A DNA stretch of 64,000 bases from Bacteroidota bacterium. GTDB lineage: Bacteria > Bacteroidota > Ignavibacteria > Ignavibacteriales > Ignavibacteriaceae. Below the pieces are notes generated by a model. That model had not been told where the DNA came from and searched no databases. It saw only the letters and a list, made by a program, of their open reading frames with translations. A program made the translations under genes and the position numbers. Shown here in pieces: positions 1 through 29,726 of this stretch. The stretch lies in NCBI GenBank assembly GCA_021824145.1, contig JAKALM010000009.1, forward strand, positions 1 to 64,000, given 5' to 3'. Numbering within the stretch: position 1 is the first letter of the stretch; each line of letters opens with the position of its first letter.

Positions 1-305
1 ACTAAAAAGTGTTACATTTACCATTGAATCCCTCGATAAAGCTTGGTGTTTTTATTTTTTCCAAAACTAATTTACCACCTTTATTTGAGGGATTTATTTT
101 TTATTATTTTGGACAGATATGATTAAAATATACAATTCTAAATTTTAATTGCCTTACAACAACATTTTTAATTTTTTTACAAAACTTAAAAAATTCAATT
201 CTATTTACACATCAATATCAGAATGATTTTATTCTAAGATTAGTTTTACTTTTGCATCAGATTTCAAATGTCAATAAATTAGATACAAATAATTTTGGTT
301 ATAGT
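1..305. other. Leading non-coding stretch with a long hairpin
   Basis: No coding region is supported here. The notable element is the long hairpin at 25-96, listed separately. A TACTTTTG at 247-254 fits the Bacteroidota -7 promoter pattern TAnnTTTG, but no clear -33 TTTG box sits about 20 bases upstream, so the promoter is only possible. It would place the transcription start near 260, in front of the ATG at 306 of the carboxypeptidase gene. Confidence 0.5.
25..96 (+). terminator. Long interrupted hairpin followed by a T-rich run
   Basis: AATCCCTC at 27-34 pairs with GAGGGATT at 87-94. After a 1 x 2 internal loop, ATAAAG at 36-41 pairs with CTTTAT at 79-84, giving 14 pairs, with a possible further GGTG/CACC pairing inside. 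The right arm runs into a T-rich tail from 95 to about 110. It could terminate a plus-strand gene lying before the window, or be a structured leader of the M14 peptidase gene. The window edge prevents a decision. Confidence 0.45.
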
Positions 306-27142: not shown

Positions 27143-28204
27143 TTATTTTAGAATTGAGTTTCTTCTTGCCCAAGCTAATTTGATTATTTTTATAAGTGCA
27201 TCTTCGTAAAGTATTCCTGCAGTCTCTGCCGATCTCATAAAACCAGCACCTTCGGTTAAATCGGGATTGGGATTTACCTCGAGAACAAATAATTCGTTAT
27301 GTTCATTTAAACGCATATCAACTCGGGCATAATCACGGCAACCCATAGCTCGAAATGCTTTAACTGCAATTTCTTTTGCTTTCATTTCTATTTTTTTCTC
27401 AAGCCTAGCCGGGCAACAAGGAATAGTTTTATGATATGATTCATGTAATGGGTCCCACTTCGCTTGATAGCTTACAATATTATAAAGGTGATCTGGCATG
27501 GCTGAAAAATCTATTTCACTTATGGGTAAAGCTTTTGGATTTTTATCGCCCATTACTGCAACATTAAGTTCTCTACCTTCAATATATTCTTCCACTAAAG
27601 CTGGTTGAAGAAAATTATCCAACACATATTTTATTCTTGATTTCAATTGTTTGAAATTTTCTACAATTGAATCATTATCAATTCCAACACTAGCATCTTC
27701 AAAAGCAGGTTTAACAATTAAAGGATATTCTAATCCATGGTTGTAACGCCCTGCAATTTTTTTAATTAATGCAAATTTGGGTGTTTTGATTCCGAAAGTA
27801 TTGAGGATACGTTTTGCAAGTACTTTATTTTGACAATTTGCAAGAGCAATTGGAGGAGCGCCGGTATATGGAATTCCTAAAAGCTCAAGAAGTCCTACAA
27901 CGTTCATTTCCAATCGAGCATTATCTTTAAATAATTCAACAAAATTAAAAATAACATCCGGTTTGTGTTTTTTTAAATCTGTCAATAAAATATCAATATC
28001 ATCTTTTATATTAATTGTATAAGCATCTATATTTTTTTTACACAGTCGTTCGGAAAGAAGCTCAAATTCTTCTATTGGTGTGAAATTGTCAACTTCAAAA
28101 TATGGAGTGAATGGAAGTTTCTTCTTGTTTAATTCGGCCGGTTTTATGTAAAAATCCGGATTTGCTTCGTTATAAGTTATTGCTACTTTTAGTTTCTTCT
28201 TCAT
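27143..28204 (-). CDS. ATP-grasp ligase related to D-Ala-D-Ala ligase
   Basis: A 353-residue cytoplasmic ATP-grasp enzyme that should join a carboxylate to an amine through an acyl phosphate. The N-terminal domain (about 1-120) resembles the D-Ala-D-Ala ligase substrate domain, with FNFVELFKDNARLEMNVVGLLELLGIPYTG. The ATP-grasp part shows YPLIVKPAFEDASVGID, EEYIEGRELNVAV and metal-binding VLEVNPNPDL. The last motif differs from the EVNTxPG of true Ddl proteins, so wall-precursor synthesis is unlikely. It is divergent, 100 bases apart, from a C39-like cysteine peptidase gene. Together they suggest a peptide-forming and peptide-cutting pair, which is inference. Confidence 0.83.
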   Translation of the reverse strand: MKKKLKVAITYNEANPDFYIKPAELNKKKLPFTPYFEVDNFTPIEEFELLSERLCKKNIDAYTINIKDDIDILLTDLKKHKPDVIFNFVELFKDNARLEMNVVGLLELLGIPYTGAPPIALANCQNKVLAKRILNTFGIKTPKFALIKKIAGRYNHGLEYPLIVKPAFEDASVGIDNDSIVENFKQLKSRIKYVLDNFLQPALVEEYIEGRELNVAVMGDKNPKALPISEIDFSAMPDHLYNIVSYQAKWDPLHESYHKTIPCCPARLEKKIEMKAKEIAVKAFRAMGCRDYARVDMRLNEHNELFVLEVNPNPDLTEGAGFMRSAETAGILYEDALIKIIKLAWARRNSILK

Positions 28205-28303
28205 ATCTTAATTAAAAATAAAGAAAAAATTTCTTTCAGCAAAATTTTTTGATGAATAAATCAATTACATTAACTAAATTACTTAATAAAAAATCGGAAC
28301 AAT

Positions 28304-29140
28304 ATGAGCTTTTATCCTCAACCCTACAAATATCAATGCGGACCCTTCGCCTTAAAATATGCATTAGTTATGCTTGGTAGATTTGAAAATGAACGTGAAA
28401 TTGGTAAGCGCGCCGGAAGTACTTGGTGGTATGGTACAGATGAAATTGGTTTAGCAAAAGCTGCGAAAAGTTTTGAATGCAAAATGAAATATTTTAGGCG
28501 TGAAACACCTGAAGAAGCTATAAAAATTTTAAGCGAACACTTAAAGCAGGGTTTGCCTTGCATTTTAAGCGTTGATAACTGGGAACATTGGTTTACTGTT
28601 ATTAATGAACAGCAAAAAAAGTTTATTGTTGTTGATAGCGGCTTAGATAAAGTGATTATTATATTAACAGAAAATCAGCTAGCTAAAAGATGGAAATATG
28701 TTGATGATGAAACCGGCTATATTAGTTACGATGGATATGCTTTAACACCAGATGTAAAACCTATGACTAAAGCTAAATTCTCGTTGGATAAAGCAAAGTA
28801 TGTAATGCAAAATAGAAACAAAGAACTTGCTGAAAAATGGGACACATATTTCAATGATTTAATTAATATTTGCCGGCCAAGAACTCCAGTTTCAAAAAGA
28901 ACAATTTCTTTTACAGAATTTTTACGACGTCATGAAAACCTTCTTATTAAACAAGTAGCTAATTGGCATGGAACTCCAACTTATCATGAACTGAAAAAAA
29001 TTTTAAAGAACATGCAGTTTGTTGCAGAAGTTTATGATTTAGTTATTTATGCTGAAGATCAAAAAAAGGCATTGGTTGATCTAACTTCAATTTTGATGAT
29101 GTATGCTTGCGGTAAATACGGTATGGATCCTATTTATTAA
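28304..29140 (+). CDS. C39-like papain-fold cysteine peptidase
   Basis: A 278-residue soluble protein whose N-terminal 170 residues follow the peptidase C39-like pattern. The nucleophile is C12 in QCGPFAL, the histidine is in NWEHWFTVI (near residue 103), and the third residue is in VVDSG (near 116). The absence of membrane helices separates it from bacteriocin-exporting C39 ABC transporters. Residues 175-278 form a helical extension I do not recognise. There is no signal peptide. It runs divergently from the ATP-grasp ligase and is followed at 16 bases by an isochorismatase-fold gene, forming a compact three-gene group of unknown role. Confidence 0.78.
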   Translation: MSFYPQPYKYQCGPFALKYALVMLGRFENEREIGKRAGSTWWYGTDEIGLAKAAKSFECKMKYFRRETPEEAIKILSEHLKQGLPCILSVDNWEHWFTVINEQQKKFIVVDSGLDKVIIILTENQLAKRWKYVDDETGYISYDGYALTPDVKPMTKAKFSLDKAKYVMQNRNKELAEKWDTYFNDLINICRPRTPVSKRTISFTEFLRRHENLLIKQVANWHGTPTYHELKKILKNMQFVAEVYDLVIYAEDQKKALVDLTSILMMYACGKYGMDPIY

Positions 29141-29156
29141 ATTATGAGGCAATAAA

Positions 29157-29726
29157 ATGGAAAATATTACAGAAAGAAATAAAAAAATTTTATCTCGCGA
29201 AAAAACTGCATTGCTTATAATTGATATTCAAGAAAAAATTTTAGCTGTAATGCAGAATCCAGATGAAGTTATTAAAAATACCATTAAGCTAATAAAAGGT
29301 TTTAAAGTATTAAATATTCCTATTTTTTATACAGAACAATATCCAAAAGGATTAGGTCAAACTTCGCTACCGCTATTAAAAGAATTAGAAGGACTAAGTC
29401 CAATTCAAAAAATGAGTTTTAGCTGTTCAGGAGCTGGAAATTTTTTTACAAGACTTAAAGATAACAATGTCTCTCAAGTTGTTATTGCAGGAATAGAAAG
29501 TCACGTCTGCGTACAGCAAACGGCTTTAGATCTTGTTGCAAATGGTTTTCAAGCAGATGTTATTGCCGATGCTATTTCTTCAAGAAAAGAGAGCGATTAT
29601 AAATTTGCAATTGAAAGAATGCGCAGCAATGGAATTGAAATTACTTCTACTGAAGCAGTCTTATTTGAGTTGCTAAATATTTGTGGCACAGAGGAGTTCA
29701 AAGAAATTTCCAGAATTGTAAAATAG
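29157..29726 (+). CDS. Isochorismatase-fold cysteine hydrolase
   Basis: A 189-residue enzyme of the isochorismatase/nicotinamidase superfamily, YcaC-like subgroup. The catalytic triad is visible as D23 (LIIDIQE), K85 (IQKMSFS) and C118 (ESHVCVQQT), with the expected cis-peptide region VIAGIESHV. Family members hydrolyse amides such as nicotinamide or related small molecules; the substrate here is not predictable. It starts 16 bases after the C39-like peptidase stop codon and is probably cotranscribed with it, so it may process an amide released by that pathway. Confidence 0.88.
   Translation: MENITERNKKILSREKTALLIIDIQEKILAVMQNPDEVIKNTIKLIKGFKVLNIPIFYTEQYPKGLGQTSLPLLKELEGLSPIQKMSFSCSGAGNFFTRLKDNNVSQVVIAGIESHVCVQQTALDLVANGFQADVIADAISSRKESDYKFAIERMRSNGIEITSTEAVLFELLNICGTEEFKEISRIVK

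Follow-up and report, generated by a model that had tools for sequence, protein, structure and literature searches.

Genes for ATP-grasp ligases that stand with genes for peptidases are an already known theme. In the RimK-RimB system, as PMC12239564 describes it, one operon holds an ATP-grasp ligase and a retropepsin-like peptidase that undoes its product. The Anbu operon comprises ATP-grasp, alpha-E, transglutaminase-like and Anbu genes, and its ATP-grasp protein resembles glutathione synthetase (PMC6376114), and in graspetide loci C39 peptidases with a fused transporter are common (PMC8939145). Here we describe a variation on this theme in 64,000 nucleotides of contig JAKALM010000009.1 from a Bacteroidota bacterium of the Ignavibacteriaceae (assembly GCA_021824145.1), a stretch that we call the window, where the gene of an ATP-grasp ligase with the fold of D-Ala-D-Ala ligase (Ddl) diverges from that of a C39-like papain-fold enzyme, which is followed by an isochorismatase-fold gene. 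Like RimK-RimB, the locus joins an ATP-grasp ligase gene to a peptidase gene, but RimB is an aspartic peptidase whereas the partner here has a cysteine papain fold, and the ligase here scores best as Ddl-like; since the partner is papain-fold and not retropepsin-like, we rejected membership in that pair. The likeness to the Anbu operon lies in the combination of an ATP-grasp protein with a hydrolase of papain/transglutaminase kind and, in one family of the class (f12), in the joining of the C39 gene to that of the proteasome-like subunit HslV. It differs in that the subunit is HslV rather than Anbu and is linked in one family only, in that the ligase is Ddl-like rather than glutathione synthetase-like, and in that no alpha-E gene was noticed, though no profile search for alpha-E was made. 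We found no description of the ligase-C39 pair in the open-access literature, including the accessible portions of PMC10318531, PMC8939145, PMC6376114, PMC11915815, PMC4431377 and PMC12239564; Iyer et al. 2009, on amidoligase neighbourhoods, lies outside that literature and may list the pair or the tandem ligase operon discussed below.

When we scanned contigs with the C39 protein, we obtained 68 loci. They were drawn from window-protein patterns and are biased to near kin, come mostly from Ignavibacteria, Ignavibacteriales, Melioribacteraceae or Bacteroidetes metagenome-assembled genomes, and share genomes with the other genome sets surveyed here. The ligase gene stands divergently upstream of the C39 gene in 58 of the 60 loci having at least 1300 bases upstream (L074 and L098 are the other two), and the gap between them has a median of 92 bases, lying at 78-160 in 59 of 63 measured cases with a maximum of 982. 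Protein-family clustering of the 55 long loci recovered C39 in all 55, the ligase in 53 and the isochorismatase in 47, the next neighbour family being present in 22. At five loci from other families of the class (L108, L109, L111, L156 and L157), whose products are 42-46% (C39) and 43-52% (ligase) identical to those of the window, the pair is present and the flanking genes differ. An earlier note on this DNA had placed the locus among amidoligase-peptidase pairings and proposed gene-neighbourhood conservation as a check; the ligase and C39 genes do adjoin in relatives, and the third gene follows C39 on the same strand in 55 of the 63 loci with at least 900 bases downstream, so that this conserved neighbourhood supports the pairing. 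Because 58 of 60 loci have the ligase divergent at so short a median distance, the association of ligase and C39 is more than chance.

The two genes are also retained together. Among 149 genomes of the class we found both in 40, C39 only in 5, the ligase only in 1 and neither in 103, with C39 presence called at E 1e-30 (45 of the 149) and the C39-linked ligase clade at 430 bits or more, all places at or above that score being covered. The ligase of G396, cut by a contig end, was counted as present by adjacency, and G454, counted as C39 only, has at the edge of a contig an unclassified part of a ligase that scores 323 bits. Where both occur, they are side by side in 26 genomes and unlinked in 14, namely G140, G398, G427 and 11 of family f12. 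The genomes with C39 only are G407, G240, G464, G446 and G454, the last two being 67% complete. C39 relatives were found in 43 of 395 Bacteroidota genomes, all of them in the window's class, with none outside it in this set and weak matches only in G093 and G243. A plasmid search gave no match to the window C39 protein and one weak match (E 0.4) to the f12 protein. Beyond Bacteroidota the coverage consisted of a contig scan sensitive to close relatives only, and limitation to the class is therefore not established.

The window ligase matches Dala_Dala_lig_C (PF07478) with 126.1 bits against a cut-off of 24 and also passes the RimK profile (28.8 against 21 bits). Its structure model has a predicted local distance difference test score (pLDDT) of 88.7, and Ddl structures are its top matches (E 2e-23). 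It falls under every NCBIfam cut-off of Ddl type, the best score being 164.9 against 243 among the 25 of 58 rows listed. A separate Ddl is encoded elsewhere in the window's genome, which has no second ligase at E 1e-60; at that threshold ligase profile matches occur in 103 of the 149 genomes, because a second operon type carries ligase relatives. When we aligned 35 ligases of the C39-linked clade with the genome's own Ddl, we found K127, K165, E212, K249, R294, D296, E309 and N311 in all 35 and E206 in 34. By contrast with Ddl, whose Glu15, Ser150 and Tyr216 (Escherichia coli DdlB numbers) we take to be the first-substrate triad, the clade has Glu in only one of 35 rows in the E15 column, where the alignment is unsure, Ala in 30, Gly in 4 and Ser in 1 in the S150 column, and Trp in all 35 in the Y216 column; no row has Ser in the S281 column. 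The clade ligases thus share with Ddl the fold, the ATP-site residues, the omega-loop Lys and the active-site Arg and Asn, and the window enzyme differs in having the first-substrate residues and the second-site Ser replaced; as judged from the alignment, the residues that hold the first D-Ala in Ddl are lost in the clade and those of the predicted ATP site are kept. With these replacements, the scores below the Ddl cut-offs and a Ddl elsewhere in the genome, we rejected a standard D-Ala-D-Ala ligase. The residue columns and NCBIfam scores bear out the earlier claim that the enzyme is not Ddl, including its non-Ddl EVNPNPDL motif, of which E309, N311, P312, N313 and P314 are invariant in the 38 rows of our ligase alignment; variants outside that alignment are EVNQNPDL in L156 and EVNPNPNL in the f12 ligases.

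In a tree of 74 rows, in which the C39-linked ligases were thinned and L112 and L158 left out, the C39-type ligases group with three solitary f12 ligases and one ligase from the end of a contig in a single clade (97/97, 35 rows); the C39 label there includes L138, which is unlinked, and L134, which has no C39 gene. The C39-linked ligases therefore share common descent. Their clade branches among the second ligases (ligase B) of a tandem operon, with mixed support for the forks that place ligase B around it and with long branches for the Ddl and Thioflavicoccus rows. The operon has the order ligase A, ligase B, GNAT, KamA-like radical S-adenosylmethionine protein. We read its tandem ligases in 17 loci, with a KamA-like open reading frame (ORF) beside them in 16 and a GNAT-like one in 15, the missing ones being hidden under preferred ORFs on another frame. 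GNAT and KamA outside L121, and hslU, mutS, CobO and groEL throughout, are names given by eye, without a profile. Ligase A keeps both Ser residues (S150 and S281 columns) in 17 of 17 loci. Ligase B resembles the window ligase in usually having the EVNPNPD motif and is its nearest kin in the tree; unlike the window locus, the operon has no C39 gene beside it and carries the aminomutase-like and GNAT-like genes. Two residues set the C39-linked clade apart from ligase B: His258 in the omega loop and Gln125 occur in all 35 clade rows, against 0 of 17 and at most 1 of 17 ligase B rows respectively, with Asn at position 125 in L029, which is in the alignment of 38 and not in the tree. The KamA-like protein of L121 scored 448.7 bits as lysine 2,3-aminomutase (cut-off 525.4) and 436.5 as glutamate 2,3-aminomutase (cut-off 650), so that its predicted substrate is not fixed by scores that both lie below cut-off; the GNAT-like protein of L121 matched profiles only below their cut-offs.

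The two-ligase operon is itself widespread in the class and resembles a beta-amino-acid peptide pathway. It occurs at L121:7808-11593, L122, L123, L125, L126, L127, L129, L130, L132, L135, L136, L137 and L151-L155, and we found no description of it in the open-access literature on aminomutases with ATP-grasp enzymes, so far as the accessible text of those sources extends. Ligase relatives are found on plasmids as well, where 554 records match; the four examined are all in other contexts. On a Thioflavicoccus plasmid (L106:4467-9948), a diaminobutyrate transaminase gene, SbnA, an ornithine-cyclodeaminase-like gene and a distant ATP-grasp relative stand in a row that is convergent with a KamA-family gene.

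The C39 protein matches Peptidase_C39 (PF03412) with 29.8 bits against a cut-off of 22, and 26 of 36 relatives match this family at E up to 0.1. Residues Q6, C12, H95 and D111, by analogy the papain-type Gln, Cys, His and Asp, are invariant in all 36 rows of the C39 alignment. The protein begins MSFYPQP and by eye has no evident signal peptide. Its model has a mean pLDDT of 90.4, with residues 1-10 below 50. In structural comparison, core residues 6-150 matched the papain-fold peptidases PeiR (Z 17.4, root-mean-square deviation [rmsd] 2.4, 132 residues aligned) and ComA (Z 16.4, rmsd 2.1, 127 aligned) in a near tie, and PeiR is also the best PDB sequence match of the C39 profile (E 0.00038). 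The VIA-align row of 6..150 on 84..228 puts C12 on C90 of PeiR, taking the offset between its end points as constant; C90 is the residue changed in entry 8z4n. While the core is like these peptidases, the window enzyme differs in having no transporter fusion and in carrying a conserved helical C-terminal part outside the matches, which VIA-align rows barely reach. The helical extension suggested earlier was confirmed in the predicted structure, which is mostly helical over residues 161-272. Here Y182, D185, R208, R209, W221, H222 and Y244 are conserved, with W221, H222, R208 and R209 invariant in 36 of 36, and no Pfam family was reported for residues 161-278 of the window protein. At 278 residues, with no ABC transporter domain and no precursor nearby, a C39 enzyme of the double-glycine leader type was rejected. 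In a viral fold library, most of the matches bear the name peptidase or lysin or are labelled uncharacterised. The class also contains short C39-like proteins, some 150-270 residues long and only weakly related, whose genes lie in varied surroundings (L115:7960-8409, L116:7956-8771, L117:10111-10569 and L118:8361-8864).

The conserved pairing, the co-retention, the conserved catalytic residues, the loss of Ddl substrate residues and the common descent of the ligases are observed. From them we infer the reactions of the pair, their order and their substrate, and propose, with belief and doubt about equally balanced, that a dedicated ligase and a cysteine acyl-enzyme share one amide-bonded compound as their substrate, which might be a dipeptide containing a beta-amino acid. 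The ATP-grasp enzyme would turn a carboxylate into an acyl phosphate and couple it to an amine. Cys12 of the C39 enzyme would attack an amide or isopeptide bond, with His95 and Asp111 assisting and Gln6 as the oxyanion residue, and the resulting acyl-enzyme would either hydrolyse the ligase product or hand the acyl group to another amine. Part of the grip on the substrate probably comes from the helical C-terminal region, and the isochorismatase-fold enzyme would be an accessory in some families. A shared substrate is the simplest explanation because the ligase and the cysteine enzyme are kept together with conserved active sites, and the likeliest product would be small and resemble a dipeptide, and might contain a beta-amino acid, since the ligase's kin sit in an operon with a lysine/glutamate 2,3-type aminomutase and a GNAT protein. 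The pair would then point to a make-and-break pathway conserved in several families of one class. It offers a testable two-enzyme unit that has a tie to HslV in one family and whose origin can be traced among the ligases of another operon, likewise uncharacterised. Its substrate would reveal a small peptide metabolite of Ignavibacteria or a reversible modification, new in either case.

Several observations weigh against this proposal. G152 has the ligase and the isochorismatase with C39 missing between the two (L134), and G240, G464 and G407 have C39 without a clade ligase, so neither gene strictly depends on the other; G464 has C39 and mutS without the ligase that G004 and G228 carry between these two. 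The tandem ligases of G240, G464 and G407 might stand in for the clade ligase. A second C39 copy in G055 and in G251 has no adjoining ligase, and the 2x2 count of co-retention comes from related, not independent, genomes and carries no simple P value. The Ala171 and Trp250 changes also occur in the tandem operon's ligase B (17 of 17), and so are not specific to the pair and are older than it. The C39 reading of G398, outside the 36 aligned, starts differently and lacks Q6. Finally, the linkage of C39 to hslV in family f12 also fits a role in protein turnover.

That linkage bears on the improbable alternative of tagging, in which the ligase would attach a residue or a short tag to proteins, C39 would take it off again or would trim peptides, and proteins so marked would be degraded by HslVU. 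By coordinates, 12 of the 13 f12 genomes have C39 immediately upstream of hslV and on its strand (in G431 the C39 gene ends at a contig edge), and in the eight f12 gene maps C39, hslV and an hslU-like ORF lie on one strand with varying other flanks (L113:8595-11561, L142-L145 and L148-L150). Such a scheme resembles the proposal made for the Anbu operon, and RimK and RimB act as ATP-grasp writer and peptidase eraser in vitro (PMC12239564). It is countered by the other 32 C39 genomes, of which 30 have an hslV match that is never beside C39 (none was found in G240 and G427): the two are on different contigs in 27 and at least 46 kb apart in G004, G124 and G132, and the gene before hslV in the genome of the window is another one. 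The ligase, too, is Ddl-like, and to our knowledge the Ddl relatives described so far act on small molecules. Nor did we find a tag gene in 55 loci. Up to 3.5 kb from C39, these loci have 496 short ORFs of 20-99 codons that do not lie inside long ORFs; they held no conserved precursor family, the largest family being a small cysteine-rich protein in 6 of the 55, and a precursor gene may lie elsewhere in the genome. The earlier statement that no substrate peptide gene was found thus agrees with our search; for the possible peptide or tag pathway of the same note, the sole hint, one of protein turnover, is the f12 linkage. We consider it less probable still that a Ddl-derived ligase marks proteins or peptides, perhaps with a beta-amino acid, that C39 erases the mark and that the eraser joined the HslVU operon in one family; if so, marking would feed a relative of the bacterial proteasome.

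Graspetide-type ribosomal peptide synthesis, with C39 cutting off a leader, is the least credible explanation: such loci often include C39 and the ligase does pass the RimK cut-off, but its 126 bits for Dala_Dala_lig_C are far above the RimK score, the 55 loci hold no conserved short ORF within 3.5 kb, and the pair has no conserved exporter family next to it, with ABC ATPases of one family a few genes away in 5 of these loci. We also think it unlikely that C39 belongs to the acyltransferases or amide synthases of BtrH/CtaG type and transfers an acyl group to an amine. CtaG makes amide bonds, its structure and those of AziU2-U3 and phytochelatin synthase are among the Foldseek matches, and 23 of 36 members match BtrH_N weakly at E up to 0.1 (best 0.0004). 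Yet the window protein reaches only 15.7 against a BtrH_N cut-off of 29.7, the CtaG alignments have a TM score of about 0.3 and an rmsd of about 18 with PeiR and ComA ahead in a second comparison, and none of the neighbours was recognised as a carrier protein, though no profile search was aimed at carriers. Hardly more plausible is that two unrelated genes stay together by vertical descent only. The cases come from one class and some genomes retain one gene without the other, which speaks for it, but the pair stays while its flanks change between families, and both genes are retained when unlinked.

The isochorismatase-fold protein matches PF00857 with 111.4 bits against a cut-off of 27, and its nearest solved structures are 8rl0 and the MAR1 entries. 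Conservation was scored on complete ORFs only (88 of 92 for C39, 75 of 84 for the ligase and 59 of 71 for the isochorismatase), leaving 84, 71 and 56 rows after merging duplicates; in the 56 isochorismatase rows D23, K85 and C118, presumably the Asp-Lys-Cys triad, are at least 98% conserved. Its gap to C39 is at most 100 bases in 48 of 58 cases measured. Within the class, we found relatives at 55% identity or more in no families other than f1, f2 and f59, and in the loci read from f3, f4 and f57 the pair has no such gene next to it. It is found without C39 in three f59 genomes (G402, G414 and G421) and in G152, and its broader family (39-49% identity) in many genomes without C39. The three-enzyme core that the earlier note had drawn therefore does not hold: the isochorismatase gene is optional, an add-on to the pair. 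Two relatives, at G399:C5:98426-98992 and G196:C26:142282-142833, have one in-frame TAG each.

The three ORFs of the earlier note were all found where it had put them and in the same divergent arrangement (Table 1). C39 and the isochorismatase gene are 16 bases apart on one strand. Since the ligase and C39 genes face away from one shared region of 99 bases, they are probably co-regulated. A conserved operator in that region was considered and rejected: only A/T-rich words beat shuffles and no firm motif emerged (no promoter scan was made), and these words may be promoter elements.

Table 1. Features of the ligase-C39 locus (positions in the window).
Feature	Position	Strand	Description and basis
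ATP-grasp ligase, Ddl-like fold, C39-linked clade	27143..28204	-	353 aa; ORF, PF07478, model, tree
EVNPNPDL motif, ligase residues 309-316	27257..27280	-	occupies the Ddl EVNxxPGM stretch
Divergent intergenic region, 99 bases	28205..28303		presumed site of both promoters (inferred)
C39-like papain-fold enzyme without transporter domain	28304..29140	+	278 aa; ORF, PF03412, model
Presumed catalytic cysteine C12 codon	28337..28339	+	invariant; aligned to PeiR C90
Presumed catalytic histidine H95 codon	28586..28588	+	invariant
Presumed catalytic aspartate D111 codon	28634..28636	+	invariant
C-terminal mostly helical extension, C39 residues 161-278	28784..29137	+	conserved residues, structure model
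Isochorismatase-fold hydrolase, optional third gene	29157..29726	+	189 aa; PF00857

Among the other neighbours, a tie of the ligase to groES-groEL in G398 (L131) was dropped when it was not seen in G427 (L159), whose contig begins 235 bases before the ligase. Cobalamin-uptake-like genes are convergent with the ligase in many loci and missing at the window, and we took them as shared synteny. At L049:411-4845 and similar loci, this convergent set, found in many relatives and named partly by eye, comprises a TonB-receptor-like gene, a small membrane protein and a HAD-IIA phosphatase gene, with a CobO-like gene elsewhere.

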